From: Roseburia sp.
GTDB taxonomy: Bacteria; Bacillota; Clostridia; Lachnospirales; Lachnospiraceae
Assembly (NCBI GenBank): GCA_023662875.1
Contig: JAMPIG010000038.1
Location: 1-34,670, forward strand
Reading direction: 5' to 3'
Length of the DNA: 34,670 bases
Shown here: positions 262-18,949 of the stretch, one piece after another
Layout of the letters: every line of letters starts with the position of its first letter
How positions within the stretch are numbered: the stretch's first letter is position 1
Program-made: the position numbers and the translations under genes
Notes under the pieces: generated by a model
The model's input: only the letters and a program-made list of their open reading frames with translations
What the model was told of the DNA's origin: nothing
Database searches by the model: none

Positions 262-2262
262 ATGAAATATTTTTGCAACCCCATCAACATCGACTACCGC
301 TACCAGTTCAACGCGGATCCGCGGAAGCCGAAGCTTCAGATCTGCCGGGAGGCGGCGGATCCGTCCATGATCTGCTTCCAGGGGAAGTATTACATCTTTG
401 CGTCCATGAATCTGAGCGTGTGGGTGTCGGAGGATATGGCTCACTGGGAGAGCTATCGCCTGCCGGAGAATTTGCCCTTATATGATTACGCGCCGGATGT
501 ACGGGTCGTGGGAGAGTATGTGTATTTCTGCGCCTCGAAGCGGGGAGAGGTATGCAACCGCTACCGGACGAAGGACATTGTGAACGGGCCTTATGAGGAG
601 ATCCCGGGAAATTTCGATTTCTGGGATCCGAATTTATTTCAGGATGAGGACGGAAGGATTTATTTTTACTGGGGCTGCTCCAATGTGACGCCGGTCTGGG
701 GAGTAGAGCTGGATCCGGAGACTATGCTGCCCTTGGGGGAGCGGGTGGTTCTGATTGAGGGGGATCCGTGGAGCAAGGGCTTTGAGCGGATTGGCGAGGA
801 TCACTGTAAGTATCCAAAGAGCGAGGCGGAGGTAGACGCGGCGCTGAAAGCGTTTCTTCGGGCGCAGAGCGCGAGCGCGGGGAAGCGGGACGATAAAGAA
901 CAGAGCTCTGGGGAAGAAGAACCCCCGGAACAGAGCTCTGGGGAAGAAGGCATCCAAGAATTGAGTACTAAGGGACAGGACGCCCAAAAGCAAGGTTTCC
1001 AGGAACGGGATTTCGAAGAGCAGGACTTCGGGAAGCAGGATCAGACTACGAAGGAACAGTCTTCCAAGGCGCAGATTCCGGAACAGATCCCGGCGGAGTA
1101 TATTCCCCTGATTCGCGGGATGCTCAGCGACGAACCGTACATTGAAGGACCGTGGATGGATAAATATCAGGGGAAGTATTACCTGCAGTATGCCTGCCCG
1201 GGGACGCAGTACAATATTTACGGAGACGGCGTTTATGTGGGAGATTCGCCGCTGGGGCCTTTTACGCTGGCGGAGAATAATCCCTATTCCTACAAGCCGG
1301 GCGGTTTCTTCCCGGGAGCGGGACACGGCTCTACCATGCGGGATCTGCAGGATAATCTCTGGCACACGGCCACCATGCGAATCAGCGTAAATCACGATTT
1401 CGAGCGGCGGGTGGGAATCTGGCCGGCGGGATTTGACGCGGACGGCGAGCTTTTCTGCAACCAGCGGTATGGGGACTGGCCGATGAAGGTGGAGGCGGAC
1501 AGGATGGATCCCTGGAAGAATCCGGAATGGTACTTATTGAGCTACGGGAAGCCGGCGACGGCGTCTTCCTTTACCGAAGGGAAGGGGCCGGAGCGGGCTG
1601 TGGACGAGAATGTGCAGACCTGGTGGCAGGCGGCGTCCGCCGGGAGCGGGGAATGGCTGGAGATTGATCTGCGGGGCGCGTATACCGTGAATGCAATTCA
1701 GATCAATTTTGCGGACGATGAGATCGACATACCGGTTCCTGGGAAGATTCGGGGAACGACTCAGGCCCGCTATATCGAGGAGAAGGATCATGCGACGTGC
1801 TGGAAGCTGGAGGGCTCGTCAGACGGAAAGAATTATTTTGTGATAGAGGACAAGTCCGCCGCGGAGACGGATCTGCCCCATGACCTGGTTGTGCGGGAGG
1901 AAGGGCTGCGGGTGCGCTTTCTGAGGCTTACGGTTTTTGAGGTTCCTTACGGACAGAGACCCTGCGTTTCCGGGCTGCGCGCGTTCGGCGTCGGGGAGGG
2001 AGAAAAGCCTCGGAAGCCGGAGTTTGAGGCGGTAAGGGAAAACGATCTGGATATGCGGGTGACGATCGCGGAGGACAATGCGACGGGCCACAATATTTTA
2101 TGGGGCAGCAGTCCCGAAAAGCTTTACCACAGCTATATGATTTTCGGGAACAGTCAGCGTGTGGGCGCGCTCGTAAAAGGGCGGGAGTATTATGTGCGCG
2201 TGGACGCCTTTAACGAAAACGGGATTACCGAAGGGGACACTGTGCGGCTTTCCGCCGTTTAA
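262..2262 (+). CDS. Glycoside hydrolase family 43-type protein with F5/8 C (discoidin-like) and C-terminal Ig/FnIII-like regions
   Basis: A 666-residue beta-xylosidase/arabinofuranosidase-like enzyme of the five-bladed propeller GH43 type. No signal peptide is visible, so it probably acts in the cytoplasm on imported oligosaccharides. Candidate catalytic residues fit the family: D33 in AADPSM as base, D122 in WDPNLF as pKa modulator, and E295 in YIEGPW as acid. Residues about 420-580 form an F5/8 type C carbohydrate-binding module (WWQA, GEWLEIDL, LEGSSDGKNY), and about 590-666 resemble a fibronectin-III tail. Residues about 203-278 are a Glu/Gln/Lys/Ser-rich insertion between propeller blades, with a duplicated EQSSGEE segment, which is unusual for the family. 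GGAGG lies 8 bases before the ATG. Substrate cannot be told from sequence. Confidence 0.88.
   Translation: MKYFCNPINIDYRYQFNADPRKPKLQICREAADPSMICFQGKYYIFASMNLSVWVSEDMAHWESYRLPENLPLYDYAPDVRVVGEYVYFCASKRGEVCNRYRTKDIVNGPYEEIPGNFDFWDPNLFQDEDGRIYFYWGCSNVTPVWGVELDPETMLPLGERVVLIEGDPWSKGFERIGEDHCKYPKSEAEVDAALKAFLRAQSASAGKRDDKEQSSGEEEPPEQSSGEEGIQELSTKGQDAQKQGFQERDFEEQDFGKQDQTTKEQSSKAQIPEQIPAEYIPLIRGMLSDEPYIEGPWMDKYQGKYYLQYACPGTQYNIYGDGVYVGDSPLGPFTLAENNPYSYKPGGFFPGAGHGSTMRDLQDNLWHTATMRISVNHDFERRVGIWPAGFDADGELFCNQRYGDWPMKVEADRMDPWKNPEWYLLSYGKPATASSFTEGKGPERAVDENVQTWWQAASAGSGEWLEIDLRGAYTVNAIQINFADDEIDIPVPGKIRGTTQARYIEEKDHATCWKLEGSSDGKNYFVIEDKSAAETDLPHDLVVREEGLRVRFLRLTVFEVPYGQRPCVSGLRAFGVGEGEKPRKPEFEAVRENDLDMRVTIAEDNATGHNILWGSSPEKLYHSYMIFGNSQRVGALVKGREYYVRVDAFNENGITEGDTVRLSAV
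901..950 (+). repeat. 30-bp-period tandem duplication inside the GH43 gene
   Basis: The 19-base segment CAGAGCTCTGGGGAAGAAG occurs at 901 and again at 931. The period is 30 bases (10 codons), so the frame is kept and the protein shows EQSSGEE twice. It lies in the charged low-complexity insertion of the hydrolase. Confidence 0.85.
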
Positions 2263-2360
2263 TACGGGCAGCCGGAAGAAAGACGAGGCGGCGCAGGGCG
2301 TTTTCAATGCCAGACCTGCGGGGCTGGCGTCAAAAGGCAAACATTGATTGGTATGCATAG

Positions 2361-2381
2361 GAGGGGTGTTTATACACCCTC
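2361..2381 (+). terminator. Short stem-loop between the GH43 gene and the next small gene
   Basis: GAGGG-G-TGT pairs with ACACCCTC across a four-base loop, with one bulged G. No T run follows, so it is a weak terminator candidate; it could equally be a stabilising or processing hairpin in a longer transcript. Confidence 0.35.
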
Positions 2382-2406
2382 TTATGAAGCACAAAGGGGT
2401 ATAAAG

Positions 2407-2637
2407 ATGAATCCGGGATCCATTATGAGGTTAATGAGCGCGAAGGCGCAGTTTGAGAGAAATCATCCAAAGTTTGTCGCATTTGCAAAAACGGTGCTTT
2501 CCAGGCCTATCGAGGAAGAGACGGTTCTGGAGGTAACGGTTACGCGCCCCGGGGAGACGCCGATCACCGCTAATATTAAAGTACAGCAGTCCGACCTGGA
2601 GCTGTTGGCGGAGCTGAGAGAGATGGGGCAGCAATAG
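2407..2637 (+). CDS. Small conserved hypothetical protein (76 residues)
   Basis: The ATG at 2407 begins MNPGSIMRLMSAK, placed after an AAAGGGG Shine-Dalgarno-like tract; a longer in-frame extension to 2344 lacks a good ribosome binding site and spans the stem-loop. The protein has a basic helical N-terminus (about residues 1-30) and an acidic beta-like C-terminal half with the segment EVTVTRPGETPITANIKV. I recognise this as a type of short protein common in clostridia but know of no established function. It sits 58 bases before a GNAT gene and may share its transcript. Confidence 0.7.
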   Translation: MNPGSIMRLMSAKAQFERNHPKFVAFAKTVLSRPIEEETVLEVTVTRPGETPITANIKVQQSDLELLAELREMGQQ

Positions 2638-2664
2638 AAGGTCGGCGGAGCTGAGAGAGATGGG
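2607..2664 (+). repeat. 21-bp direct repeat at the end of the small gene
   Basis: The segment starting GGCGGAGCTGAGAGAGATGG occurs at 2607-2627 (inside the gene, encoding AELREMG) and again at 2644-2664 in the spacer, a 37-base period. It looks like a partial tandem copy of the 3' end of the coding sequence placed just before the GNAT ribosome binding site. Confidence 0.8.
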
Positions 2665-2695
2665 ATAATCGTAGCTCTCTTTGGAGGATAAGATA

Positions 2696-3151
2696 ATGGG
2701 CGAGAGTCAAAGTCAGGACAGGCGGAAGGATTATAACAAGGCGGTAATCTACGAAAGCTTTCCCCAGGAGGCAAAAGAAATTCGCGAAGAGGTTTTTATA
2801 AGAGAGCAGGGTTTTCAAAAGGAGTACGATGAAATCGACCATGAGGCGGTGCATATCGTATTGTACGATGCGGAAATACCAGTCGCAACCTGTCGGATTT
2901 TCTGGAATGAGGACATGGGCGCTTATACGCTGGGAAGGCTTGCGGTAAGAAAGGAATACCGGGGTCAGAATATCGGTTCCCTTATGCTGAGGGAAGCGGA
3001 AAACCTTGTGCGTCGGAAAAATGGTAAAGAGCTTATTCTTCATGCGCAATGCCGCGCGGCGGATTTTTACAGGAAATCCGGGTTTGCGGAGTTTGGCGAA
3101 GTGGGGGACGAGGAGGGCTGCCCTCACGTCTGGATGCGGAAGGAAATTTAA
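2696..3151 (+). CDS. GNAT family N-acetyltransferase (ElaA/YjcF-like)
   Basis: A 151-residue acetyl-CoA-dependent acyltransferase. The ATG at 2696 is chosen because GGAGG lies 8 bases before it; a TTG at 2681 overlaps that site. The N-terminal segment EIREEVFIREQGFQKEYDEID is the signature of the ElaA/YjcF-like branch of GNAT proteins. Motif A is visible as LGRLAVRKEYRGQNIGSLML, where RGQNIG is the acetyl-CoA pyrophosphate-binding loop, and the C-terminal AADFYRKSGF is the usual motif B. The substrate is unknown; these proteins are soluble and often single-gene units. Confidence 0.88.
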   Translation: MGESQSQDRRKDYNKAVIYESFPQEAKEIREEVFIREQGFQKEYDEIDHEAVHIVLYDAEIPVATCRIFWNEDMGAYTLGRLAVRKEYRGQNIGSLMLREAENLVRRKNGKELILHAQCRAADFYRKSGFAEFGEVGDEEGCPHVWMRKEI

Positions 3152-3251
3152 GGAATTCCGCGGATCCGATAGATTTTGTGGGGACGGTTTTGTGCCGCCG
3201 CAGGCGGCGTGACGGGAAGTATGTTATGTAAAAGGGAAGGCATGGTTGTAA

Positions 3252-3932
3252 ATGCAATATACAGGGAAATACGAGTCGCCGCTCGGCGGTATTGTACTGG
3301 CGGCGGATGAAATCGGACTGACGGGGCTATGGTTTGAGGGACAGAAATACTTCGCACTTTCCCTTGACCCGGAAAACGAGGAGAGAGAGCTGCCTGTATT
3401 CGAGCAGGTCAGAGAGTGGCTTGACCTTTATTTCGGTGGTCGGGAGCCGGATTTTAAGCTGCCGCTTCATTTTACGGGAAGCGCATTCCAAAAGGCGGTG
3501 TGGGAAATTCTTTGTCAGATTCCCTATGGGCGGACGACTACTTACGGGGAGATTGCGAAGCAGCTGGCAGGGCGGCGGGTCGCCCCGGGAGGAGAATCCG
3601 CAGGGATGTCCGCTTGGCACCGCGAGCCAAAGGATGAGCGTATTCCGGCCTTGGGAGGAGAATCCGCAGGGATGTCCGCTTGGCACCGCGAGCCAAAGGA
3701 TGAGCGTATTCAGACCTCGGGAGGGGAAGTCATGGGGATGTCCGCCCAGGCGGTGGGCGGCGCGGTGGCGCGTAATAATATATCGATTATCGTGCCCTGC
3801 CACAGGGTAGTCGGCGGAAACGGGAGTCTTACCGGATACGCGGGGGGCATTGACAGGAAGATTGCCCTCCTGAAGCTGGAAGGGGGATACAGGGATACGT
3901 TTTTTATCCCGAAAAGGAGTACCGCGCCGTGA
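3252..3932 (+). CDS. ogt: Methylated-DNA-[protein]-cysteine S-methyltransferase with repeat insertion
   Basis: Repairs O6-alkylguanine by moving the alkyl group to its own cysteine. The active-site IVPCHRVVG is present (C183), as are the family segments FQKAVWEILCQIPYGRTTTYGEIA and GSLTGYAGG. The protein is 226 residues against roughly 155-175 for most members. The excess is an insertion at about residues 112-165, made of two near-identical 22-residue units (GGESAGMSAWHREPKDERI core) plus a third partial one. It falls inside the helix-turn-helix, between GEIAKQLAGRR and the recognition-helix segment AVGGAVARN. The frame is intact and the catalytic end looks normal, but whether DNA binding survives is uncertain. 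The ATG at 3252 follows a GGAAGG at 3235-3240. Confidence 0.9.
   Translation: MQYTGKYESPLGGIVLAADEIGLTGLWFEGQKYFALSLDPENEERELPVFEQVREWLDLYFGGREPDFKLPLHFTGSAFQKAVWEILCQIPYGRTTTYGEIAKQLAGRRVAPGGESAGMSAWHREPKDERIPALGGESAGMSAWHREPKDERIQTSGGEVMGMSAQAVGGAVARNNISIIVPCHRVVGGNGSLTGYAGGIDRKIALLKLEGGYRDTFFIPKRSTAP
3587..3746 (+). repeat. 66-bp tandem repeat (about 2.4 units) inside the ogt gene
   Basis: Units begin at 3587, 3653 and 3719. The first two are almost identical for about 59 bases; the third keeps GGGAGG and GGGGATGTCCGCC but diverges elsewhere. Each full unit contains a short stem (TTGGC/GCCAA). The period is 22 codons, so reading frame is preserved through all copies. Confidence 0.92.
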
Positions 3933-4011
3933 GGAGCAGGCGGTCGGCAGCCGTCAAAGTACCTGTTCCTGAAAGCCTGGAGTTTGTGCGTAAGTTTGTG
4001 CAAAACTACCT

Positions 4012-4040
4012 TTGACAAAATTCAGAAATCAGACTAAACT
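4012..4040 (+). promoter_or_regulatory. Sigma-A-type promoter ahead of the first MATE gene
   Basis: A consensus TTGACA at 4012-4017 is separated by exactly 17 bases from TAAACT at 4035-4040. The predicted start near 4047 leads directly into a hairpin with a T run, giving a leader of about 200 bases before the MATE gene. Confidence 0.7.
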
Positions 4041-4049
4041 AAAGAAAGT

Positions 4050-4096
4050 GCGTAGCCAAAGAGGCGTAAGTCCAGCTTCTTGGGCTACGCCTTTTT
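4050..4096 (+). terminator. Hairpin with T run immediately downstream of a promoter (possible attenuator)
   Basis: GCGTAGCC at 4050-4057 pairs perfectly with GGCTACGC at 4083-4090 and is followed by CTTTTT. Inside the loop, GGCGTA (about 4063) can instead pair with TACGCC (about 4086), so two exclusive stems compete. This could be a plain terminator for the alkyltransferase gene, but its place some 3 bases after the expected transcription start of the downstream promoter suggests an attenuator or a very short RNA. Confidence 0.6.
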
Positions 4097-4101
4097 GTAT
4101 G

Positions 4102-4173
4102 ATAGGAAAGTTTGTCTCAGCCGGGGAAGAATGCGAAGCATTCTTCTAAGCGTCGCGAAGAGACGCTTTTTTA
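4102..4173 (+). repeat. Dispersed double-hairpin repeat, copy 1
   Basis: Family layout: an AGGAAA(C/G)TT(C/T)GTC lead, then hairpin AGAATGC-GAA-GCATTCT, then AAGCGTC-loop-GACGCTT followed by T residues. The second hairpin with its T run is a good rho-independent terminator. Related copies are at 4178-4238, 8249-8320 and 24450-24520. Confidence 0.8.
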
Positions 4174-4177
4174 TCCA

Positions 4178-4238
4178 GTAGGAAACTTCGTCACGATCAG
4201 GGAAGAACGCAAAGCGTTCTTCTAAGCGATGTTTTATG
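4178..4238 (+). repeat. Dispersed double-hairpin repeat, copy 2 (truncated)
   Basis: Directly follows copy 1. The lead AGGAAACTTCGTCAC and the first hairpin (AGAACGC-AAA-GCGTTCT, with paired compensating changes relative to copy 1) are intact, but the second hairpin stops after AAGCG. It abuts the ribosome binding site of the MATE gene. The compensating base changes suggest the hairpin structure itself is maintained. Confidence 0.78.
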
Positions 4239-4253
4239 CAAGGAGGAATTTTT

Positions 4254-5654
4254 ATGGAACAGAAAACAAATAACTTTTTGGAGCAACAGCCCGTCGGGAC
4301 ATTAATGAAAAAATACGCGGTTCCCTGCGTGATTTCGCTGCTGGTGGCGGCGCTCTACAATATCGTAGACCAGCTTTTTATCGCCAACGCAAGCTATCTT
4401 GGCTCCTACGGCAATGCGGCGAATACGGTAGTCTTTCCCCTGACGGTGATCGCCCTGGCGATCGCGGTTATGATCGGGGACGGCTGCTGCGCCTTCGTCA
4501 GCATCTCCCTGGGAGCAGGCCGGAGGGATAACGCCCACAGGAGTATCGGCAGCGCCGTGCTGCTTTGCGTGATCAGCAGCGTGGTTCTCGCGGCGGTTTA
4601 TCTGATCTTTCAAAACCCCATTCTGACGGTTTTTGGCGGACGGGTCAACGAGGAAACCTTCCTTCAGGCGAAGGAATATTTTCTCTGGATCAGTCTGGGA
4701 ATCCCGTTCTATATGTTCGGGCAGGCTATGAACCCGATCATCCGCTCCGACGGGAGCCCGAAATTCGCCATGCTGTCTACCCTGGCGGGGGCTGCCGTCA
4801 ATATAGTCCTCGACCCGATTTTTATCTTTGTCTTTCGATGGGGCATGATGGGAGCGGCGGCAGCTACTGTGCTGGGACAGGTTCTGACGGCGGCGCTGGC
4901 GATATGGTATCTTTGCCATATGAAGGCGGTTAAGCTGGAGGCCGCAAGCTTCCGTATCCATGGGAGGCTGGCCGGGAAGTACCTGGCGCTGGGTATCACC
5001 AGCTTCCTCTCTCAGATTTCACTGGTGGCGTCGATGGCGGCCGTCAACAACATGATTCGGAAATACGGGGCTTTGGATTCGGTATTCGGGCAGGCTGAGT
5101 ATGCGCAGATTCCTATGGCGGTAGTCGGTATCGTCATGAAATTCTTCCAGATTGTCATCTCGATCGCCGTCGGGACGGCGGCGGGCTGCATCCCCGTCGT
5201 AGGCTATAATATCGGGGCGGGGAGAAAGGATCGGGTAAGGGAGCTTTTTACCCGTCTGCTGACGATGGAGGCTGTTGTGGGAGCCGTCGCCCTGCTGATT
5301 GTGGAGCTGCTTCCCCGTCAGCTGATCAACCTGTTCGGGGCGGCGAACGAGAGCGTCTACTATACGGAGTTTGCGATAAGAAGCTTCCGCATTTACCTCT
5401 GCATGGTGATTTTTGCTACCGTGAACAAGGGAACCTTTATCTTTCTGCAGTCCCTGGGGAAGGCTGCGGCGTCCACCGTTATTTCCATGATCCGGGAGGT
5501 TGTGTTCGGCGTGGGCTTCGCGCTGCTGCTGCCGCGGTTTTTCGGGCTGGACGGCGTGCTCTACTCCATGCCGGTGTCCGACCTTTTGACCTTCCTGATC
5601 GCGACGGTCGTTATCGTGAAGACATACCGGGAGCTGGGTGGACAATCCGCCTGA
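4254..5654 (+). CDS. MATE family efflux transporter
   Basis: A 466-residue, 12-helix membrane exporter of the multidrug and toxin extrusion family, expected to expel cationic or drug-like compounds using a sodium or proton gradient. The N-terminal LMKKYAVPCVISLLVAALYNIVDQLFIA and the internal-repeat counterpart (ITSFLSQISLVASMAAVNNMI) are typical of the clostridial MepA/DinF-like group. The PIIRSDGSPKFAM loop after helix 4 is a family hallmark. The start at 4254 is preferred over an in-frame ATG at 4236 because AAGGAGG (4240-4246) lies 7 bases before it. It has its own promoter at 4012. A second MATE gene follows after a 556-base spacer and may be an ancient paralogue. Confidence 0.93.
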   Translation: MEQKTNNFLEQQPVGTLMKKYAVPCVISLLVAALYNIVDQLFIANASYLGSYGNAANTVVFPLTVIALAIAVMIGDGCCAFVSISLGAGRRDNAHRSIGSAVLLCVISSVVLAAVYLIFQNPILTVFGGRVNEETFLQAKEYFLWISLGIPFYMFGQAMNPIIRSDGSPKFAMLSTLAGAAVNIVLDPIFIFVFRWGMMGAAAATVLGQVLTAALAIWYLCHMKAVKLEAASFRIHGRLAGKYLALGITSFLSQISLVASMAAVNNMIRKYGALDSVFGQAEYAQIPMAVVGIVMKFFQIVISIAVGTAAGCIPVVGYNIGAGRKDRVRELFTRLLTMEAVVGAVALLIVELLPRQLINLFGAANESVYYTEFAIRSFRIYLCMVIFATVNKGTFIFLQSLGKAAASTVISMIREVVFGVGFALLLPRFFGLDGVLYSMPVSDLLTFLIATVVIVKTYRELGGQSA

Positions 5655-5768
5655 GATATTTCACCGGGCGGCGTTGGCGTATCGACCTGTTTTGTCGGAC
5701 GGGGACGACAGCGCCGCTATAGCGAGCCGGACAGAACCGACATTCGGAGCGGGCAGCGCGGATATACC

Positions 5769-5858
5769 GTGCAATCTGCGCAGGCAAGGGCGAAGCAGAC
5801 ACTGAGTCTGTATTTCGCTGTATCCCCCGGTGCAATCTGCGCAGGCAAGGGCGAAGCA
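5769..5858 (+). repeat. 29-bp direct repeat, 61-base period
   Basis: GTGCAATCTGCGCAGGCAAG and the nine bases after it are identical at 5769-5797 and 5830-5858. The copies are non-coding and lie upstream of the second MATE promoter. Confidence 0.85.
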
Positions 5859-5914
5859 CCGCTCCGGTCAATTTCTCCAGTATGCTGCGAATGCAGTTTT
5901 GGTAAAAACAGCCT

Positions 5915-5943
5915 TTGCGGTTCGCGGGATATTTTGCTATACT
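5915..5943 (+). promoter_or_regulatory. Promoter ahead of the second MATE gene
   Basis: TTGCGG, 17 bases, TATACT, with TGC directly before the -10 giving an extended -10. Transcription would begin near 5950 and run through two T-tract hairpins before the coding start at 6211. Confidence 0.55.
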
Positions 5944-5980
5944 GATAATAAAGATTATAAAAGGAATACAGTCATTCAAC

Positions 5981-8248: not shown

Positions 8249-8320
8249 ATAGGAGATCTATCATAACTGGCGAAGAATACGAAGCATTCTTTCAGGCGTT
8301 ACAAGGTGACGCTTTTGTCA
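8249..8320 (+). repeat. Dispersed double-hairpin repeat, copy 3
   Basis: A diverged copy of the family at 4102: GAATAC-GAA-GCATTC first hairpin, then GCGTTAC-AAG-GTGACGC followed by TTTT. It lies between the convergent MATE-fusion and DUF11 genes and may end transcription from both sides. Confidence 0.68.
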
Positions 8321-8343
8321 CTTTGCGACGCTTTTAGCGGATT

Positions 8344-8443
8344 GTTCCAGGCACGGTAAGAACAGCGTTACCTGGAACAACAGTCCATTTTAACGAATCG
8401 TTCCAGTCACGGTGAGAACAGCGCTTCCCGGAACGGCAGTCCA
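8344..8443 (-). repeat. Partial tandem duplication of the 3' end of the DUF11 gene
   Basis: About 44 bases covering the last codons of the gene (8400-8443) recur just beyond its stop (8344-8387) at roughly 75-80% identity, with a 56-base period. On the minus strand the outer copy still reads WTVVPGNAVLTVPGTIR but in a different frame from the gene. The period is not a multiple of three, so the gene now stops at the inner copy. Confidence 0.8.
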
Positions 8444-9265
8444 GGCGCCGGTCACAGAATTCTGGCTGTAGGTTGCGGCGGGCACTGTGATAGCGCCTGC
8501 GGTTGTGGCAAATTCGCCGGTTGCGGCGTTGTAGGTGTAGCTGGAGGCGGGCAGAGCGGCACCGTTATAGGTTACGGTGATATTGGAGAGGGCGGGGTTG
8601 AAGGTATCCGTAATCTGTACGTTGTCCGCGGCTGTGGCGGCGGTATTGCCCAGGTTCTGGATATCAAAGGTATAGGTAATGTTCCCGTTCTCCGCGACCT
8701 GCCTCGGAGATACGCTCTTTAAGATTGTCAGGTAGGGCGCTTCCCGGGACGTTATTGCGGAAGTCGCAGTGAGAGGCGCAGAGATTTCGCTGCCGTCGAT
8801 GGTCGCCGTATTTGTGATCGTGCCGGTCGTCCCGGGGTTTGCGAACGAATTGACCTTCGCCTGATAGACAAGCATGGCGTTGCCGCCGGCCGGTACGCTG
8901 ATGTTCTCAACGGTAAGGTCGGTTCCGGATGTCACGGTCGGGGTGGCCTGCTGTACGCCGTTCTGATAGTAGCGGATCGAGTCCGGCACATAGGTCAGAG
9001 GAGTAACCCGCAGCCCGGGTACTGTGCTCGTACCGCCGGACAGGGTATACGCCCCCAGATCGTCGGTCAGGGTCAGACCCGTAAAGGGAGCTGTGCCGGA
9101 GTTGACAAGGCTGACCACATAGGTTACCGTATCATCCGGTTCGTACTCCGTCGACAGAGCCTCCTTTGCCGCAGATAAAACCTCTACGATTTCCCCTGTC
9201 GCAATGTTGGAATTAGTCGTAATGCCGTTATAGGATAAAACAGCCTGATTTGTAAAAGTAGCCAT
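8390..9265 (-). CDS. DUF11 repeat-domain protein (conserved-repeat, surface-type)
   Basis: A 291-residue Thr/Ala/Asn-rich beta protein with no Trp-rich or charged core. It contains the DUF11/TIGR01451 pattern twice: DTVTYVVSLVNSGTAPFTGLTLTDDLG near residue 45, and ILKSVSPRQVAENGNITYTFDIQNLGNTAATAADNVQITDTF near residue 180. Such domains are usually found in secreted or cell-surface proteins. The start at 9265 (MATFTNQAVLSYNG) follows AAGGAAG, and the protein then lacks any signal peptide, LPXTG or membrane anchor. It may be a spore-coat or exosporium component or be exported by an unusual route; both are inferences. The 3' end shows a recent partial duplication. Confidence 0.8.
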   Translation of the reverse strand: MATFTNQAVLSYNGITTNSNIATGEIVEVLSAAKEALSTEYEPDDTVTYVVSLVNSGTAPFTGLTLTDDLGAYTLSGGTSTVPGLRVTPLTYVPDSIRYYQNGVQQATPTVTSGTDLTVENISVPAGGNAMLVYQAKVNSFANPGTTGTITNTATIDGSEISAPLTATSAITSREAPYLTILKSVSPRQVAENGNITYTFDIQNLGNTAATAADNVQITDTFNPALSNITVTYNGAALPASSYTYNAATGEFATTAGAITVPAATYSQNSVTGAWTAVPGSAVLTVTGTIR

Positions 9266-9350
9266 ATTGAAGCTTCCTTTCTTTATGTTGTTGTACTTTA
9301 ATTTATGACAGTTTTTGAAAAAAGGTGTCGAGAAAATTTTGCAAAGCGGG

Positions 9351-9379
9351 TTGACAAATATATCGGAGCATGATATATT
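9351..9379 (+). promoter_or_regulatory. Promoter of the padR operon
   Basis: TTGACA at 9351-9356, 17 bases, TATATT at 9374-9379. Two AT-rich dyads overlap it, as expected for an autoregulated repressor gene. Confidence 0.75.
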
Positions 9380-9410
9380 AATTCTGCGATATATCGAGCG
9401 GCGATGTATC
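9359..9410 (+). promoter_or_regulatory. Probable PadR operator dyads
   Basis: Dyad 1: TATATC (9359-9364) and GATATA (9372-9377) lie in the promoter spacer and -10. Dyad 2: GATATATCG (9388-9396) and CGATGTATC (9402-9410) differ by one base pair from perfect symmetry and cover the transcription start. The shared ATATC half-site is like PadR-family operators. Binding by the adjacent PadR protein is inferred. Confidence 0.55.
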
Positions 9411-9722
9411 ACAGGATGAAATATTTAAGATGCGGCGTGTTGGAAAACGATAGAATCAGGTATGCTGAGCTGGAAAAAATGGGATCCGCGGTTTGGCGGG
9501 TTGAAAAACGACATCTTCCTACTGCGCCTTATTGAAAAGGACATTTTTTGAATATGCGGTATCGACAGAGAGGCGGTGATGGCTGCGATAGACGGGGAGA
9601 TCTTCAGGATATGTGACATTGGCGGGGGAGAGAATTTCAACTGCGATAGATCTGAGAACAGGATCAGAGGGATAAGTTGATTGGATAAAGCGTGGGAATA
9701 TGTTCAAAAGGAGGAGGACAAA
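9411..9722 (+). other. Leader of the padR operon, about 310 bases
   Basis: Mostly featureless. A 39-codon frame with ordinary-looking codons (ATG 9416 to TGA 9535, beginning MKYLRCGVLENDR) starts shortly after the expected transcription start but has no clear ribosome binding site. Three loosely similar segments (GTTGGAAAACGA, GTTGAAAAACGA, ATTGAAAAGGAC) occur between 9439 and 9545. The ribosome binding site of padR, AGGAGGAGG, is at the 3' end. Confidence 0.35.
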
Positions 9723-10046
9723 ATGGATAAAAGCGTACCGCTGACAGAAGCCATCTTCTATATTCTGCTGTCCGTGAGGAAGCCGAACCACGGATATGGT
9801 ATTATTCAGGAGGTGGAAAAGCTGACGGGGGGAAGAGTAACCCTCGGGCCGGGAACCCTGTACGGGGCGATCCAGACGATGACGGCGCGGGGCTGGATCC
9901 GGATTTACAGTGCGGAAACGGATTCCCGGAAAAAGAAGGAATATGTGATTACGGAGACGGGCATGAGAATCTTCGCGGAGGAAAAAAAGCGGCTGGAGGA
10001 GCTTCTGGCGAATGCCGCGCTGATGGAGGTGACAGGAAATGACTAA
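9723..10046 (+). CDS. PadR family transcriptional regulator
   Basis: A 107-residue winged-helix repressor of the short PadR type. The sequence TEAIFYILLSVRKPNHGYGIIQEVEKLTGG followed by LGPGTLYGAIQTMTARGWI is the classical PadR DNA-binding domain, with the wing at KKKEYVITETGMRIF. The C-terminal helix (residues about 80-107) would form the dimer. The ATG at 9723 follows AAGGAGGAGGAC. It overlaps the next gene by 8 bases, so the pair is translationally coupled. It probably represses its own promoter through the dyads at 9359-9410. PadR next to DUF2812 is a very common arrangement in clostridia. Confidence 0.93.
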   Translation: MDKSVPLTEAIFYILLSVRKPNHGYGIIQEVEKLTGGRVTLGPGTLYGAIQTMTARGWIRIYSAETDSRKKKEYVITETGMRIFAEEKKRLEELLANAALMEVTGND

Positions 10047-10869
10047 ATTTCGCTGGTATTACGACACGGACAGGGAGACCGAGTGGCTGAATGAAATGGC
10101 GGAGAAAGGGTATGCCATGGAGGGCTTTTTTCTGGGCTTTTATTTCTTTGAGGAATGCACGCCGGGGAAGTACCTTTATCAGATCGATTTTTCCGAGGAG
10201 TTTGGGCATGTGCATTCCGCCTATCGGGAGTTTCTGGCGGAGACCGGGGTGGAGATTATTAAAATCTGGGGCTTTTGGGTGTATCTCCGGAAGAGAGCGG
10301 AGGAAGGACCCTTTGAGCTTTACTCGGATGTGGAGTCACGGGTAGATCATTACAAAAAAATATGCAGAATATTCCAGGTTGCCTTATTTGTCGAGTTGAT
10401 CTGCGCGATTACCCAGCTTTTCTGCGGGCTGGGGATAATCTCTTCCGTTCTGTGGGGTCAGGATGGACTTTTGTCTTCCTGGAGCTTCGGCAGTCCGGAA
10501 GGGCTTTCGTTCCCGTGGGGCTTTAACGGCTGGGAAGAACTTTCCCTTTCATGGCGTTTCGGCGGCCTGGGCAGGTATTCCTTCTTCTGGGGTCTCGCCG
10601 CGCTGCCCCTGGCGATCGGTATCGCTATGGAGAGGGAAATCGAAAGGATGGGCAAGATGATCCGGGAGCTGAAAAGCCGACAGGGCGAACCGGAGGGAGG
10701 CGGCAGACTTGGCAATCGGCTGCCGTCAAGGATACTTCTTGCCGGATTATTTGTTCTGGCTGCGGCGATGCTGTTCCCCAATCCGATCTGGAAGTGCGCC
10801 GCCACAGGGGTCTGTATGCTGTTGATTCTGATAGGATTAGCGCTGAGTATGCGGAGGAGAAAAGTATAG
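10039..10869 (+). CDS. DUF2812 domain membrane protein with tandem-repeat segment
   Basis: 276 residues. The first 110 residues are a DUF2812 domain (FRWYYDTDRETEWLNEMAEKG, YLYQIDF, IKIWGFWVYLRK), which is cytosolic. A membrane segment follows at about 113-135. Residues about 145-183 consist of four 12-residue repeats with the pattern xxWxFxxxxxLS, and then three more hydrophobic segments (about 180-195, 232-250, 254-270). It ends in the basic SMRRRKV. DUF2812 partners of PadR are thought to act as membrane-linked sensors or anti-regulators, but no mechanism is established. The repeat segment is not part of the family. It converges on the spore-protein gene with a six-base gap. Confidence 0.85.
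   Translation: MTKFRWYYDTDRETEWLNEMAEKGYAMEGFFLGFYFFEECTPGKYLYQIDFSEEFGHVHSAYREFLAETGVEIIKIWGFWVYLRKRAEEGPFELYSDVESRVDHYKKICRIFQVALFVELICAITQLFCGLGIISSVLWGQDGLLSSWSFGSPEGLSFPWGFNGWEELSLSWRFGGLGRYSFFWGLAALPLAIGIAMEREIERMGKMIRELKSRQGEPEGGGRLGNRLPSRILLAGLFVLAAAMLFPNPIWKCAATGVCMLLILIGLALSMRRRKV
10471..10597 (+). repeat. 36-bp tandem repeat (about 3.5 units) in the DUF2812 gene
   Basis: The TGG codon marking each unit falls at 10480, 10516, 10552 and 10588, an exact 36-base (12-codon) period. Units are diverged at the DNA level but keep TTC/CCC-TGG-x-TT(C/T) and CT-TTC. In the protein they read SSWSFGSPEGLS, FPWGFNGWEELS, LSWRFGGLGRYS and FFWGLAALP. Confidence 0.85.
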
Positions 10870-13478: not shown

Positions 13479-13553
13479 AGATGATGCCGTAGGGAAAATT
13501 GTATTTTGCACCATGGCAATCGAATCATAAAGAGATTTAATATGTTATATCGG

Positions 13554-13585
13554 GGTCTTGCTGGGTATTCCAGCAAGACCTTTTT
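13554..13585 (+). terminator. Rho-independent terminator of the Rpn gene
   Basis: GGTCTTGCTGG pairs perfectly with CCAGCAAGACC across a five-base loop and is followed by TTTTT. Confidence 0.92.
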
Positions 13586-13882
13586 CAGATGACAGCGTTC
13601 TTTTTACAGGGTTTCCCCTTCGTATTTGAAAATTCACAGGCTCAATGTCTATTGGGAACATTATAATTTGCAGCATAAGGAATAGGGTGACAAAAATATT
13701 GAAAATCACAGATGATGATTGTCTACACGGAATTAAAATTTTTCGTTTTCCGTGATCTGTTCCACCAGCTCCCTGTCACCATATTGGAACTTTTTCTGAA
13801 TATTGTATATCCCTGGAGTTATTTTACCGAAAAAGGCAAAAAAACAGTTTTTATTGGCAGGGAAAATTTAATCAGCAGACGC

Positions 13883-13970
13883 TATGTGGAATATTATCCG
13901 GAATGGAACAGAAACGATGAGCTTTGAAAAAGAGAACGCAGTTCATAGACCCTGAGTTTGACATGGTTAT
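13883..13970 (+). repeat. Diverged 80-bp direct repeat, copy 2
   Basis: Matches 12436-12518, with TATGTGGAATATTATCCGG, GAACAGAAACGATGAGC and CCTGAGTTTGACATGGTTAT. It lies about 1.45 kb downstream of copy 1, on the far side of the intact Rpn gene. Confidence 0.7.
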
Positions 13971-14013
13971 GAGGGCATCGCTTATGGATTAAGCGGCCTG
14001 CCCAGCCTGGTTG

Positions 14014-14045
14014 TCCATAAGGCGAACCAGAATTCGCCTTATGGA
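14014..14045 (+). repeat. Perfect 13-bp inverted repeat
   Basis: TCCATAAGGCGAA and TTCGCCTTATGGA surround six bases (CCAGAA). No T run follows, so it is not a typical terminator. It sits just after the stop of the regulator relic read on the minus strand and could be the old end of that transcript or part of a mobile hairpin. Confidence 0.75.
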
Positions 14046-14065
14046 TAATACAGTCAAGGAGATTA

Positions 14066-14182
14066 TTAAGAGAAGCTTGAGTAGCGAATAATATCGCCCG
14101 GAGTACATTCCAGCACATAACAGATGCGGGCGAGTACATCCGCTGACGGATAGGGAGCAGGAACAGAAATATATTCGCAGGC
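14066..14182 (-). pseudogene. Relic of a Cro/CI (XRE) family helix-turn-helix regulator
   Basis: On the minus strand one frame reads ISVPAPYPSADVLARICYVLECTPGDIIRYSSF and then stops. The block SADVLARICYVLECTPGDII is the C-terminal part of a small XRE-type HTH domain (compare the common DVLxKICxxLxCxxGDI ending). The first helices and the start are missing, so only about a third of the gene remains. Its promoter and partners cannot be seen. Confidence 0.55.
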
Positions 14183-14403
14183 GGGGATGACGGTGACAAA
14201 CCGCGGTTAAAAACCTGTTGCTTATTATAACGTGAGATGATACAATACATTCAAAGCATATTTTCTTTTGCATCGGCGGCTGTCGATATTTCTTCAGTCT
14301 ATTTTCTATAGAAATTCTTTTGAAAATTCATGCTTTTACTATCACATTACAGGCAGGAGTTTTCAGAAGAAAGCGCTCCTGCACACTTTGCAGGAGGGCA
14401 TAT

Positions 14404-14952
14404 ATGGAAAGGATGAGAAAAAAGTACGAGGAACTGACGATCGTAGACGACTTTATGTTCGGGAAGGTAATGCGGAACCCGAAACACTGCAAGAAACTGC
14501 TGGAGATCATTTTGAATGTGAAAATCGGGAAGATAGAGTTCATTGATGACCAGCAGACAGTAGACCCGGATTACATGGCGCGGGGCATTAGGATCGACGT
14601 CTATGTGGAGGATGACGCCGATACGGTTTATTCTGTGGAAATGCAGGCCAGAAGCACAGGAGAACTGCCGACGAGGAGCCGTTATTACCAGTCGGCGGCG
14701 GCAAAGCAGCATAAGGAGTGGAGGCGGGAGTATATGACGCTGGAACGGATGATGATGGACAGCAAGCGGGAAGGAAGAGCAGAAGGAAAAATCGAGGATA
14801 TATTGCAGTTATTGGGTGAATTGGGCGAGTTGACGGATATTTAAAAAAATCGCATTCAGCAGGAAACGGATTTGCAGATGCTGAAAAAATGGTTGAAAGC
14901 GGCTGCCAGAGCAGAAAGCGTTTCGGAATTTGAAAGTAAAATGGATGCTTAA
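14404..14952 (+). pseudogene. Decayed Rpn/PDDEXK nuclease gene (internal deletion plus nonsense codon)
   Basis: The frame from ATG 14404 gives 146 residues up to a TAA at 14842. It starts with the family opening (ELTIVDDFMFGKVMRNPKHCKKLLEIIL) and keeps the D...ExQ catalytic pattern (GIRIDVYVED, VYSVEMQAR). After RSRYYQS it jumps to KQHKEWRREYMTLERMM, which in relatives lies about 110 residues later, so the middle has been lost in frame. Reading past the TAA in the same frame gives RIQQETDLQMLKKWLKAAARAESVSEF, the normal family C-terminus, to a second stop at 14950. The gene is therefore broken twice. It is the second Rpn-type gene within 2 kb. Confidence 0.8.
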
Positions 14953-14955
14953 AAT

Positions 14956-15540
14956 TCAGAAAACAAGCTGCAAAACCCCCAGCCCGATCAGCAAAAGGCC
15001 GGAGAGCGGGTCTGCCGCTTCCCCGATAAATCGAAGAAACCGGCTGCGGCCCAGGCGGTTGCCTGCCAGCAGAAAAAGAACCGAGCAGGAAAAGGTCGAG
15101 ACAGCGGCGGAAACAGGAAGAAGTCCCGCCAGGCTGGCGCTGAAGCCGATTCCCATATTATTGACGGACAGGCTCAGGCTTAAGAAAGCGATCTCCTGCG
15201 GGTTAAGCGTTTTCCGGCAGGAGTTTACGGGCTGCTTGTCGCTTCCGGCGTCGGCGGGGTGCCGGTTTCGCAGGGTAAAGAGAATTTGCTTTGCGATATA
15301 GTAAATGCCCAGCAGGATCAGCACCAGACTGCCGATGAAGCGCCCCGGGAAGGAGGGCAGCAGGGGAAGCAGACGAGCGCCCAGCAGAGCGGACAGGCAG
15401 GTGCCGAGGAAGGTGACGAGGCTGATGAGTAAATTCTGCCAGAGTAAAATTCTGACCCGGCGCAGTCCGAAGCTGATACCGACGAGAAGGCTGTCAAGGC
15501 TGGCGGAGACGCCGAACAGAAGGGAAGGAAGTAGCTGCAT
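14956..15540 (-). CDS. ytaF: Sporulation membrane protein YtaF (MntP-like fold)
   Basis: 194 residues with six predicted membrane helices. The opening LLPSLLFGVSASLDSLLVGISFGLRRVRI and the internal counterpart LNPQEIAFLSLSLSVNNMGIGFSASLAGLLP form the two-fold repeat, each with the conserved Asp or Asn pair, seen in YtaF and in the related MntP manganese exporters. YtaF is linked to sporulation but its transported ion is not settled. AGGAGCC precedes the ATG at 15540. It converges on the decayed Rpn gene with a gap of only 3 bases, which places the accessory patch directly at a core gene. Confidence 0.85.
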   Translation of the reverse strand: MQLLPSLLFGVSASLDSLLVGISFGLRRVRILLWQNLLISLVTFLGTCLSALLGARLLPLLPSFPGRFIGSLVLILLGIYYIAKQILFTLRNRHPADAGSDKQPVNSCRKTLNPQEIAFLSLSLSVNNMGIGFSASLAGLLPVSAAVSTFSCSVLFLLAGNRLGRSRFLRFIGEAADPLSGLLLIGLGVLQLVF

Positions 15541-15809
15541 ATCGCGGCTCCTATTTATATTCCGTTTCCCTTTACTATATTCCTTTTTTCGCCGCGGGGT
15601 GTCAATTTATTGTTCAGGGCTGCAAAATTCTGTTGTTTTCCCATGGGAAGCTTCGTATCTCTTTTATGAGAAATCTCGCTACGGACGGAGAAGAGCGGCG
15701 GTTTATGGCCGCGAATAATGAGCTAAAGCTTTACGGGAGACGGTGGGTGCCGATAGGGTCAAGCTTCCCGCAGCCTGACGTGTTGTAAGCTTGCCGGAGG
15801 AGCCCTTAC

Positions 15810-16502
15810 TTACGTCAGAAGAAAGAAGACGGCCCCTGTCATCATCAGGACGCCCAGGATTACGGTGAGAGCGGCCCCTGCTTTCTCCAAAAGGCGGCCG
15901 CCCTCCGATAGCTCCGCGTTGTCGTATATCCAGCGGCGGAAGAGGAAATGCATTTTGTCCGGATAGAGAAAGCCGAGGACGCCGTAAAGATAGATCAAAA
16001 GGCCCAGGATAGGAACCGGCCACGCGGAGATGCTGTCGTGCGCGCCGAAGTAGATTCTGGCTAGGGCCTGGCAGGAAGCGGCGTCGCTGAGTCCGACCGG
16101 TTCATTGTTCATGACAATAGAATTTTCAATTCTATTGTTTACAGAAATTGTAATTGCGCCCCAATCCAGAGGCATCCCGTTGGGGGCGGTGAGATGCTCT
16201 CCGTTCCATACGCCGGTCAGAGAAGTCCCGTTTGAAAAGGTAAAACACAGCGCGCCGTCGTCGAAACGAAGAGTTCCCGCCTTTTCGCCGGTCTCCGTCA
16301 CAATGCGAAATTCACCCTGGGAGGTAAGCTCGATATAGCTTGAACGATTGTGCTCATACCTGGTCGAGCTTACCCGGCGAAAGAATTCGTTGTTCAGGTA
16401 GACTCCCTTACGCAGGGTAAAATAGCCGCCCGTCAGCAGGGAAATGACAGCGATCAAAACCGCGCCGATTTTCAGAATTCGTCTTTTTCTGCTTTCGTCC
16501 AT
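15810..16502 (-). CDS. Membrane protein with C-terminal DUF6199-like region
   Basis: 230 residues. After a basic start (MDESRKRR) a membrane segment spans about 11-28. Residues about 50-120 form a beta-rich extracellular domain (YIELTSQGEFRIVTETGEKAGTLRFDDG, CFTFSNGTSLTGVWNGEHL) resembling lipocalin-like stress-sensing folds. Two further membrane helices lie at about 157-174 and 208-228, with the segment GLLIYLYGVLGFLYPDKMHFLFRRWIY between them typical of DUF6199. The ATG at 16502 follows GGAGGACAG. Residues about 122-130 are encoded by a perfect mobile-type hairpin. It follows the M56 gene on the same strand but has its own promoter candidate. Function unknown. Confidence 0.72.
   Translation of the reverse strand: MDESRKRRILKIGAVLIAVISLLTGGYFTLRKGVYLNNEFFRRVSSTRYEHNRSSYIELTSQGEFRIVTETGEKAGTLRFDDGALCFTFSNGTSLTGVWNGEHLTAPNGMPLDWGAITISVNNRIENSIVMNNEPVGLSDAASCQALARIYFGAHDSISAWPVPILGLLIYLYGVLGFLYPDKMHFLFRRWIYDNAELSEGGRLLEKAGAALTVILGVLMMTGAVFFLLT
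16114..16138 (-). repeat. AATAGAATT hairpin repeat inside a coding sequence
   Basis: ACAATAGAATT and AATTCTATTGT form a perfect 11-bp stem around TTC. The flanking CATGACAATAGAATT also opens the copy at 19726. Read on the minus strand it supplies in-frame codons for NNRIENSIVMN in the DUF6199-like protein. Confidence 0.85.
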
Positions 16503-16572
16503 ACTGTCCTCCGTTCCGCCGCCCTGCGGCAAAGGAATAATTCTTTTCGCATAGAGCTTGCTTTTTATAGAG

Positions 16573-16578
16573 ATTATA
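16573..16578 (-). promoter_or_regulatory. Candidate extended -10 promoter of the DUF6199-like gene
   Basis: On the minus strand TGC precedes TATAAT, an extended -10 about 70 bases before the start codon. No good -35 hexamer is seen 17 bases upstream. Confidence 0.4.
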
Positions 16579-16627
16579 GCAGGCAGGAGAGAGTGTGAAA
16601 AGAAAGAAATCGGCATGATATAAGGGT

Positions 16628-18949
16628 CTAATGTGCAACCACTTTTACCCCGGTCAGATTCCCATCTTGGTCATAAACGGTCTGAGCGCTGATACCGCCC
16701 TGTTCCGCGGAAGTAAACGAAAACGCACTGCCGTCGGGAGATACGTCCGCAAAGCGGCTGACTAACTGTCCGTTCAGATACACATTTCCGCGCCCGCTGA
16801 CGCCGTCGGCTTCCTCGTAAGTGATACCGAAATCCTTGTATTGGGCAAAGCGTTCTTCAAAGGTTGTGCCGCCTGTGTCGCCCACAAAACCGAGAGCAGT
16901 CGACTCCTGTGTCATAGTTGGGTTCATCAGGAAACGGTTGTCAAACTCCTCCCGGCTGTACTCCTCGATGCCTGTCAGCCTGCCGCCGGGATCGATGCTG
17001 CCGTCGGCGTTTCGCGTCGCCTGCCGGACGGTGTGAACGTCTACAACGCCGTCTTCGTTTACATAGTCGTAAATGGTCGCCGTGCCGTTTTCCAGGGTAT
17101 AACCGTCAAAAAAGTACCGCACCGTTTTCCCGTTGAAGGAGAAAGCTTTCGTTTCGTCATCCCAGGTCAGGCCGTAAGTCTTATAATCCGCCAGAAGCTC
17201 GGGAGTAAGCGTCTGAGCGCTGCCGGATTCCGCCATATCCCCCGGGATGCTGTCCATGGCGATAGCCATGCCGAGAACCGCTGTTATATCGGTGGCAGTT
17301 GCCTGCAAAGCGGGATCATAGCCAAGCTGTATCATGGTATCGCCGTCAGCCGTGGGCTTGGAAACCTTCATCCCGGCTTGAATATCCTTCAGAGTCTGCT
17401 CATATCGGGCGATCGCTTCATCTGCCATCTCCTGCGTCCAGGTGTACCACCCGTCGGTAGGGTTCCAGCCCCGATCGCCGATGACGGATTGCAGAGCAGC
17501 CTTTTCCTGCTCCAGCCAGGCGGCATACTCCTCCGCCGTCCACCATTCTACACCGTCCCAGGCGCTGTGTTCCTCCGCAGCCCGGTACATCGTCTCTACC
17601 TCTTCATCGGTCAACGCCGTCCAGGTTTTTCCGTTGTCACGGCTGTAATAGGTTTTGCCGTCCTTTGGGTCGGTATAGGACGTTATATTGACGTCGTCAT
17701 AGACCGTCTCGCTATAGGTGCTGGAGAATCGATCAGACTGCTTTTGATCAGGATTCTGCGAATCCTGTCCGCCGTCCTGTGTCTGCGCCGAGGTCGCAAA
17801 GGCGGTCGTTACGCTGAGAATCAGCGCGAGGGCGATAAATGATGACATTCGTGTCGTTTTCTTTATTTTCATAATTGCAAGTATCCTTTCTTCTGTTGCG
17901 TTTTTGCTGAAATTGTTACAGAGGGGCCTGAGGCCGCTCTTGGTTTCCTCCAGACGGATGAGCGTCATGGCGTATGCGGATTTTATGCGCTCTCCAAATC
18001 GACGGATTACCGCTTCGTCACAGCTTAGCTCGATATCCCGGTTGGCGAGGACATACATGGTCCAGACCGTCGGATTGAACCAGTGAATGCAGAGGGCGGC
18101 GGTCAGCGCCAGCTTTGCAACGGCGTCAAAACGGCGGATATGGATGTACTCATGGGTCAGCACATAGTCCAGTGCTTCTCTGTCACTCCAATCCGTGCAC
18201 CCCGGCAAAAGAATCACCGGGCGAAATACGCCGTAGGTCAGCGGTGCAGAAATCCTGTCCGATTGCCGGATTTGAAGCCTGCGGCGGAGCGGATGCGCCT
18301 TGAGCCAGTCCGGCGCAAAACCGCTGTCAACCGGCAGAGATTCCCGAAATTCCCGGCGGCATTTCAGATAGGCAGCCGAGAAGAACGCGGCACAGGCCAA
18401 TACGCCGATGAGCCAGACGGGCGCGTATCGATCGAAGTCGGCGATCCGGGATGCAATATCGTGGAAAATACCGGCAGGTACGCCGGATACAACCCCGCCA
18501 GCGGACGGCACTGCCGCTGTGCCGGACATGGCGTCGAAATCCGGGAGGGCTGTAAAACCGGGAGAAATGACAGAAGTGTCAGCACCGGGCGGATTTGGCG
18601 TTGCCGGTGAGATCAGTCGGCCCAATTTCTCCCAGAAAGAGTAAATGCTGAAAGCCAAACCGCTGTCAGCATGACTCTGTCCTTTACAGAGCAATCTCTC
18701 CCAGAAAGAGTAAGCGCTGAAGGCAAAACCACTGTCAACATGACTCTGCTCTCTACGAAGTAATTTCCCCAATAAGGAATAAATGCTGAAGGCAGACGGC
18801 AGGGAATAAGGAATCAGCAGCCGTGCCAGCGCAACGCCCCACAGGGCGGAAAATGTTCTCTTCGGAAGCCGGTTGATTGTTAATGCGCGGATTATTACGA
18901 TGATCAAAATCATCGCGGCCCCGGAAACGCTTCTTTCCAACAGGCTCAT
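16628..18949 (-). CDS. M56 family metallopeptidase, BlaR1/MecR1-like sensor-transducer
   Basis: 773 residues. The N-terminal part is membrane-embedded, with a zinc-protease HEYIH at residues 266-270 and the downstream CDEAVIRRFGERIKSAYAMTLI block of M56 antirepressors. A further membrane helix (MSSFIALALILSVTTAFA, about 368-385) leads to an extracellular domain of nearly 390 residues. This is not a penicillin-binding domain; it contains two copies of a module with YKTYGLTWD / YKDFGITYE and NGKTVRYFFDG / NGQLVSRFADV at about 584-650 and 698-773. Residues about 50-115 hold a 23-residue tandem repeat (SHVDSGFAFSAYSFWERLL). The start overlaps the BlaI stop by four bases (ATGA). By analogy it senses a cell-wall signal and triggers cleavage of the BlaI repressor; the signal is unknown. 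Confidence 0.88.
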   Translation of the reverse strand: MSLLERSVSGAAMILIIVIIRALTINRLPKRTFSALWGVALARLLIPYSLPSAFSIYSLLGKLLRREQSHVDSGFAFSAYSFWERLLCKGQSHADSGLAFSIYSFWEKLGRLISPATPNPPGADTSVISPGFTALPDFDAMSGTAAVPSAGGVVSGVPAGIFHDIASRIADFDRYAPVWLIGVLACAAFFSAAYLKCRREFRESLPVDSGFAPDWLKAHPLRRRLQIRQSDRISAPLTYGVFRPVILLPGCTDWSDREALDYVLTHEYIHIRRFDAVAKLALTAALCIHWFNPTVWTMYVLANRDIELSCDEAVIRRFGERIKSAYAMTLIRLEETKSGLRPLCNNFSKNATEERILAIMKIKKTTRMSSFIALALILSVTTAFATSAQTQDGGQDSQNPDQKQSDRFSSTYSETVYDDVNITSYTDPKDGKTYYSRDNGKTWTALTDEEVETMYRAAEEHSAWDGVEWWTAEEYAAWLEQEKAALQSVIGDRGWNPTDGWYTWTQEMADEAIARYEQTLKDIQAGMKVSKPTADGDTMIQLGYDPALQATATDITAVLGMAIAMDSIPGDMAESGSAQTLTPELLADYKTYGLTWDDETKAFSFNGKTVRYFFDGYTLENGTATIYDYVNEDGVVDVHTVRQATRNADGSIDPGGRLTGIEEYSREEFDNRFLMNPTMTQESTALGFVGDTGGTTFEERFAQYKDFGITYEEADGVSGRGNVYLNGQLVSRFADVSPDGSAFSFTSAEQGGISAQTVYDQDGNLTGVKVVAH
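18628..18800 (-). repeat. 69-bp tandem repeat (about 2.5 units) in the M56 gene
   Basis: Units starting at 18628, 18697 and 18766 share TCTCCCAGAAAGAGTAA, GCTGAA(A/G)GC, CTGTCA(G/A)CATGACTCTG. The first two are about 85-90% identical, the third is more diverged. The period is 23 codons, so the frame holds; the extra copies lengthen the periplasm-facing loop after the second membrane helix. Confidence 0.9.

Follow-up and report, generated by a model that had tools for sequence, protein, structure and literature searches.

Short tandem arrays recur in unrelated genes, at gene edges and between genes of the genome studied here, and their distribution is very probably explained by ordinary tandem-duplication mutation together with purifying selection for reading frame, acting in a clade whose minisatellite load is raised. 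The window (the whole stretch of DNA analysed, 34,670 nucleotides) is contig C83 of a draft genome of 3.72 Mb in 151 contigs, from which we sampled 583 kb (16%) in stretches. The MurG of this genome is 98% identical to that of a MAG (G106, ~3.6 Mb), which we took as the sister and sampled in stretches totalling 800 kb; many of the next MurG matches are labelled Acetatifactor or Lachnospiraceae. Control samples came from eight genus relatives (400 kb), five other families of the order (400 kb), 80 murG loci (1,389 kb), and E. coli K-12 (250 kb). Arrays were detected with Tandem Repeats Finder (TRF) and counted if they had a period of 20-150 and a score of at least 80, and coding and intergenic classes were assigned with a simple codon-model gene finder made for this analysis. 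To gauge chance, the best self-match of each gene or region was compared with those of 300 three-base-block shuffles.

Repeats inside four genes of the window

The following features of the window concern repeats inside genes:

262..2262, + strand: GH43 glycosidase gene (PF04616 plus F5/8 type C domain; domain match)
877..1080, + strand: lineage-specific in-frame insert of GH43, ~68 codons, hydrophilic, containing the 30-bp repeat (homologue alignment, shuffle test)
3252..3932, + strand: 6-O-methylguanine DNA methyltransferase (alkyltransferase) gene (PF01035, PF02870), PCHRV motif intact (domain match, alignment)
3579..3725, + strand: alkyltransferase insert of 49 codons, missing in the sister and four other aligned relatives
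3586..3728, + strand: 66-bp tandem array, 2.2 copies, 93% matches (TRF)
10039..10869, + strand: DUF2812 protein gene (PF11193; domain match)
10426..10596, + strand: variable segment of DUF2812 with decayed 36-bp (12-residue) repeats, ~4 units (sister ~5; alignment with sister)
16628..18949, - strand: M56 (BlaR1-type) peptidase sensor gene (domain match)
18623..18794, - strand: 69-bp array, 2.5 copies, 79% matches, a duplicated native SAFSIYSLLGKLL segment in M56 (TRF, alignment)

None of 300 shuffles reached the best self-match of the 30-bp (GH43), 66-, 69-, 37-, 56-, or 40-bp repeats. The 66-, 69-, and 56-bp arrays are strong, and the 30-bp (GH43) and 37-bp repeats are short yet above chance. 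Among the 28 window genes of at least 100 aa, three (GH43, alkyltransferase, and M56) beat all of 60 shuffles each. The initial annotation had listed period-of-three repeats in four unrelated genes; these three lie above chance, and the fourth, DUF2812, does not when the window is taken alone but is clear in the sister. These arrays have the form of coding minisatellites or VNTRs, with head-to-tail units of tens of base pairs inside an open reading frame.

The 36-bp repeat of DUF2812 has an identity of 0.55 at offset 36 over 125 positions in the window copy, and 255 of 300 shuffles reach its best score. Because the orthologous insert of the sister carries a clear 36-bp array (TRF score 101), we take the window repeat as a decayed true repeat, and the initial annotation was probably right on this gene. 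The insert is missing in one distant homologue (G130), in a comparison from which a shared-word filter dropped 10 of 12 homologue loci, and the search matches of G005 and G130 leave out the greater part of it.

The GH43 repeat is a 22-nt exact match at offset 30, with copies starting at 898 and 928. The segment that holds it is missing in all 14 aligned homologue loci, some of which have shorter linkers there, and residues 206-273 are not covered by the matches of the nearest homologue (G136). The M56 protein, which is 92% identical between window and sister, presents another picture: its SAFSIYSLLGKLL segment occurs three times in both and once in each of seven other aligned homologues. An M56 homologue from G159 (L217) carries a different repetitive insert at the place of the window's duplication. 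The duplicated segment follows the conserved N-terminal stretch of the sensor, and the sensor gene adjoins a BlaI-type (Penicillinase_R) regulator gene, the two forming a BlaR1/BlaI-like pair (16628-19395, - strand).

The alkyltransferase insert of 49 residues immediately precedes the conserved MSAQAVGGAV stretch and, from the alignment, is predicted to lie in a loop. Each 66-bp unit includes a copy of the native AGGGATGTCCGC stretch. In the DNA alignment, the sister has one AGGGATGTC stretch, whereas the window has three related copies plus two copies of ~45 bp of other DNA; simple duplication of a native segment does not explain the first insert. The alkyltransferase of G026 (L062) has a short repeat of its own, different and in another loop. 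Since this gene and the G159 M56 gene carry different repeats with other unit sequences, similar events recur independently in the genus.

In GH43, alkyltransferase, and DUF2812, then, the repeat is part of an in-frame insert specific to the lineage, and in M56 it arose by duplication of a native segment. Three of the four named genes therefore hold their repeat within a whole insert that has no counterpart in homologues, so the arrays are not all simple duplications. The proposal of a local duplication process stands insofar as the arrays are local and falls short for these three genes. The further statement that the repeats share no sequence holds for most: in an all-versus-all comparison of arrays from the sampled stretches of the two sister genomes, 90 of 108 match no other array at E 1e-5.

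Repeats between genes and at gene edges

Three further repeats of the window lie between genes or at their ends:

2607..2664, + strand: 37-bp-spaced direct repeat with a 21-nt exact match, straddling the stop codon of ORF 2344-2637 (shuffle test)
8332..8443, - strand: 56-bp array, 2.0 copies, 82% matches, overlapping the 3' end of a DUF11 gene (8390-9412, - strand; TRF)
19684..19762, no strand assigned: intergenic 40-bp palindromic array, two copies (sister one; TRF)

The pair at 2607/2644 had been described as a non-coding copy. It is real and above chance but not wholly non-coding, as it spans the stop codon of the ORF; the sister match near it ends at 2636. The repeat reported at 8344/8400 is borne out as the 56-bp TRF array overlapping the DUF11 3' end, of which the sister appears to have one copy. 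The 19684 array was missing from the initial annotation.

Palindromic arrays of 39-40 bp form one family comprising 11 of the 108 arrays, with a period of 78 in two. Seven are in our genome (L005:5985, L009:137, L011:1450, L015:7005, L028:19200, L042:6056, and L043:320), five of them intergenic, and four are in the sister (L230:5775, L261:572, L263:3301, and L273:10925). The core arm of the family occurs 17 times in the own stretches, four times in the sister stretches, and not at all in the genus and order stretches.

A dispersed element of ~75 nt is found in the window at 4101-4175 and 4179-4228 (+ strand), and also at 8269-8316 and 24451-24520. A conserved stretch on the 5' side is followed by a hairpin whose core reads GCGAAGC and by a second stem with sides that seem to covary, and the element closes with a run of T. 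There are 12 matches, some partial, in 583 kb of the own genome and 15 in 800 kb of the sister, whose genome has it in at least 36 places (40 of 155 candidates scored). No copy was found in 400 kb of genus relatives and 400 kb of order relatives, and there was no Rfam match in the window. The element has the look of a repeated terminator or a mobile RNA element specific to the clade.

The palindromic elements of Rickettsia are in-frame inserts inside unrelated protein genes, and the in-frame inserts in unrelated protein genes described here are like them in this respect. Mobile palindromic or hairpin elements inserted into genes would accord with the single family of 11 palindromic arrays and with the folding of four of 11 units far better than shuffles (8332, one M56 unit at 18623, and both 19684 copies), but neither alkyltransferase unit folds better than shuffles, and for the coding arrays of the window, unlike the Rickettsia elements, no shared sequence or dispersed copies were found. 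Elsewhere in its own genome, the 66-bp unit has nothing but chance matches of 14-19 bp; a search for its core pattern turned up no further genome among 138 of the genus (allowing up to 3 mismatches) or among 392 of the order (allowing up to 2), and no exact match in viral contigs; and searches of phages and plasmids returned only short pieces (E 0.1 to 0.4). A dispersed source of this unit was accordingly rejected. This lack of dispersed copies largely refutes a mobile-element origin of the coding arrays, an origin to which we assign next to no probability.

Array density in the sister pair and its relatives

Our genome has 49 arrays in 583 kb (8.4 per 100 kb) and the sister 59 in 800 kb (7.4 per 100 kb). 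Densities are 3.2 per 100 kb in the eight genus relatives (13 arrays in 400 kb), 3.0 in the five other families of the order (12 in 400 kb), 2.8 in the 80 murG loci (39 in 1,389 kb), and 0.8 in E. coli K-12 (2 in 250 kb). Against the genus relatives, whose random stretches are the fairest control, the ratio is 2.6 for the own genome (p 0.0017), 2.2 for its long contigs only (p 0.023), and 2.3 for the sister (p 0.006). Pooling own and sister (108 arrays in 1,383 kb) against all relatives' samples (62 in 2,168 kb) gives 2.7 (p 1e-10), in a pool that includes 79 murG loci (the sister's own omitted) from a conserved neighbourhood, which may understate the relatives and makes the genus-only ratios fairer. 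A density no higher than in relatives would have spoken against the initial annotation; the sister pair is two to three times denser than the sampled relatives. By a re-implementation of the satellite criterion of PMC6749651, the own genome has 32.6 per Mb (22.6 on long contigs only), the sister 31.2, and the relatives 7.3-10, figures from a version uncalibrated against the original program and not comparable with published ones. Literature searches on tandem repeats in Lachnospiraceae and Acetatifactor found no report of such a load in the genus.

The draft state of the genome raises the matter of assembly artefacts, as there are 151 contigs and the array density is higher on short contigs (10.5 per 100 kb, against 7.0 on contigs of at least 20 kb). 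However, the sister, a separate record, shares the 69-bp array at equal length and the DUF2812 array and has a similar density; short-read assembly, moreover, tends to collapse repeats. We regard an artefactual origin as extremely improbable.

A replication or repair change that raises the rate of mid-length duplications in the species pair and its nearest kin would be compatible with mutation plus selection for frame, and would account for the raised density. In its favour, both sisters have 2.3-2.6 times the density of the genus relatives, a rise seen in coding as well as non-coding DNA, and the 11 murG loci nearest by MurG identity take an intermediate position (sister's omitted; 10 arrays in 183 kb; p 0.32 against the sisters). 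Weaker selection, however, would give the same pattern, and the relatives' samples are thin, with two small single-relative samples as dense as the pair (G031, 4 arrays in 40 kb; G039, 8 in 60 kb). The two repair genes examined, MutS and SbcD, are present in each sister, full-length and over the family cut-off, respectively, so that loss of either was rejected as the cause of the raised density. In the murG neighbourhood, own and sister have no indels of at least 8 aa against relatives at 70% identity or more (0 in 121,870 aa). Taken together, we hold such a clade-specific mutator to be possible but rather unlikely.

Perfect stems of at least 8 show no clear excess in the pair (16.1 per 100 kb in the own genome, 16.9 in the sister, 13.0 in the genus, and 25.2 in the order stretches), and a hairpin excess was rejected, the order stretches exceeding both sisters. 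The composition of the units is skewed: the coding-strand purine fraction is 0.659 in 48 units versus 0.556 in length-matched background (p 1e-10), and the intergenic strand skew is 0.138 in 50 units versus 0.091 (p 0.001). Purine-rich units fit slippage-prone DNA and equally fit hydrophilic linkers; they are a correlate of the density.

Reading frame, turnover, and meaning

Across the five data sets, the period is divisible by three in 79 of 82 coding arrays and 26 of 73 intergenic ones (Fisher p 3e-17), a coding count that is partly built in, because an out-of-frame array breaks the ORF and is then classed as edge or intergenic. The intergenic share does not depart from the expected one third (p 0.71). 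By set, the coding counts are 23/24 (own), 24/25 (sister), 7/7 (genus), 4/4 (order), and 21/22 (79 murG loci), and the intergenic counts are 11/21, 11/29, 1/4, 2/6, and 1/13, respectively, the own intergenic figure being inflated by the 39-bp palindromic family. Arrays at gene edges were excluded from both classes (4 own, 5 sister, 2 genus, 2 order, and 2 murG). At least one of the arrays counted as coding is doubtful: L042:6056 is a member of the palindromic 39-bp family, and its ORF is probably spurious. Comparing coding with non-coding periods was the check that the initial annotation had proposed, and its outcome agrees with what was expected there.

Per 100 kb, coding DNA has 4.8 arrays in the own genome and 3.5 in the sister, and non-coding DNA has 26.6 and 32.0; non-coding DNA is thus 5.6 times denser in the former and 9 times in the latter, a pattern that general mutation followed by filtering of genes would give. 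Nine of ten array-bearing genes scanned have a Pfam match, and the matched genes include a UPF0004/radical-SAM protein, Rho factor, a histidine kinase, an SNF2 helicase, and a flotillin-like protein.

Both flanks of an array could be placed in sampled sister sequence for 8 of the 49 own arrays, seven of which differ in length, only the M56 array being equal. In the other direction, 9 of the 59 sister arrays had both flanks in own sequence; three of them were excluded, one for spanning a gene-sized difference and two for having both flanks on one place, and the remaining six all differ. These counts cover 8 own and 9 sister arrays, the other 41 and 50 being not comparable, and include some partial flank matches and one pair (L034:8605 / L240:11717) counted from both sides. 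Copy number thus differs between the sister species, as in VNTRs of close genomes. For the alkyltransferase array and L034:14182-14300, the sister has almost none of the unit instead of one copy, and lengths suggest the same for L034:7902 and L037:2151, whose alignments, like that of L020:3963, were of too low quality for single events to be traced. To account for such cases, one has to assume that filler DNA of other sequence was inserted first or that the sister lost what it once had. We also counted indels of at least 8 aa at 70% identity or more, with 14 in 25,255 aa of own-sister genes (one counted twice via an L119 copy) versus 167 in 2,118,200 aa of murG-neighbourhood pairs; this rate was set aside as a measure because the control genes lie in a conserved neighbourhood. 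Several of the reciprocal gene matches were paralogues at ~30% identity. The picture drawn by the initial annotation, of local arrays that occur throughout the sampled stretches, keep frame inside genes, and turn over, is upheld, with the turnover seen between the sister species.

Recurrent in-frame arrays in unrelated genes, fast turnover, and raised density are what a dedicated system that makes frame-preserving duplications inside genes of this lineage would produce. However, the in-frame rule is equally strong in the genus, order, and murG sets and is therefore not special to the lineage; array density is higher in intergenic DNA than inside genes, contrary to what a gene-directed process would give; and most units match no other. 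We consider such a system highly implausible. The assertion that no described system behaves in this way is not supported either, as the same in-frame rule is seen in other Lachnospiraceae, in five other families of the order, and in a published survey.

Under mutation plus purifying selection, local copying errors would yield tandem duplications of ~20-150 bp genome-wide, probably by replication slippage or template switching, with unequal exchange joining in after a second copy has formed. Intergenic arrays of almost any period would survive; inside genes, purifying selection would leave only period-of-three arrays in loops and linkers that presumably tolerate inserts. Later mutation of the copies would produce arrays ranging from near-identical to barely recognisable. 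A more specific version, which we consider unlikely, ties a raised mid-length duplication rate to purine-rich DNA and has a sourceless filler insert followed by tandem copying, so that proteins, housekeeping enzymes included, would gain new segments of 40-70 residues during the lifetime of a species pair.

In simple-sequence contingency loci (phase variation), units are a few base pairs long and a change shifts the frame. Our arrays are unlike them, with units of 20-150 bp (the only range counted) and the coding ones in frame. According to passages of the survey PMC6749651, more than 4 satellites per Mb are found in just 18 of 119 bacterial species, many satellites have a sequence of their own, abundance is uneven between species, and long-unit prokaryotic satellites are mostly multiples of three that likely code for amino-acid repeats. 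The arrays described here share the mostly unique units, the long units in multiples of three, and the uneven abundance; they differ in also occurring in housekeeping-type genes, and the present lineage is not named in those passages. They also resemble the small variable segments described in PMC2884548, which are short and intragenic, keep frame, and differ between close genomes, but which are defined there by within-species alignments, whereas our comparison is between sister species. The case is therefore a high-load lineage within known coding minisatellites or satellites and not a new system.

The notable point here is a species pair with two to three times the repeat density of its sampled relatives and fast change. 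For homology searches and gene models in the genus, this is a warning that conserved enzymes can contain large inserts of recent origin. The pair also offers a natural setting for studying how new bacterial protein segments originate and are filtered: two sister species can be compared, sites occur both empty and filled, and the independent events are numerous.
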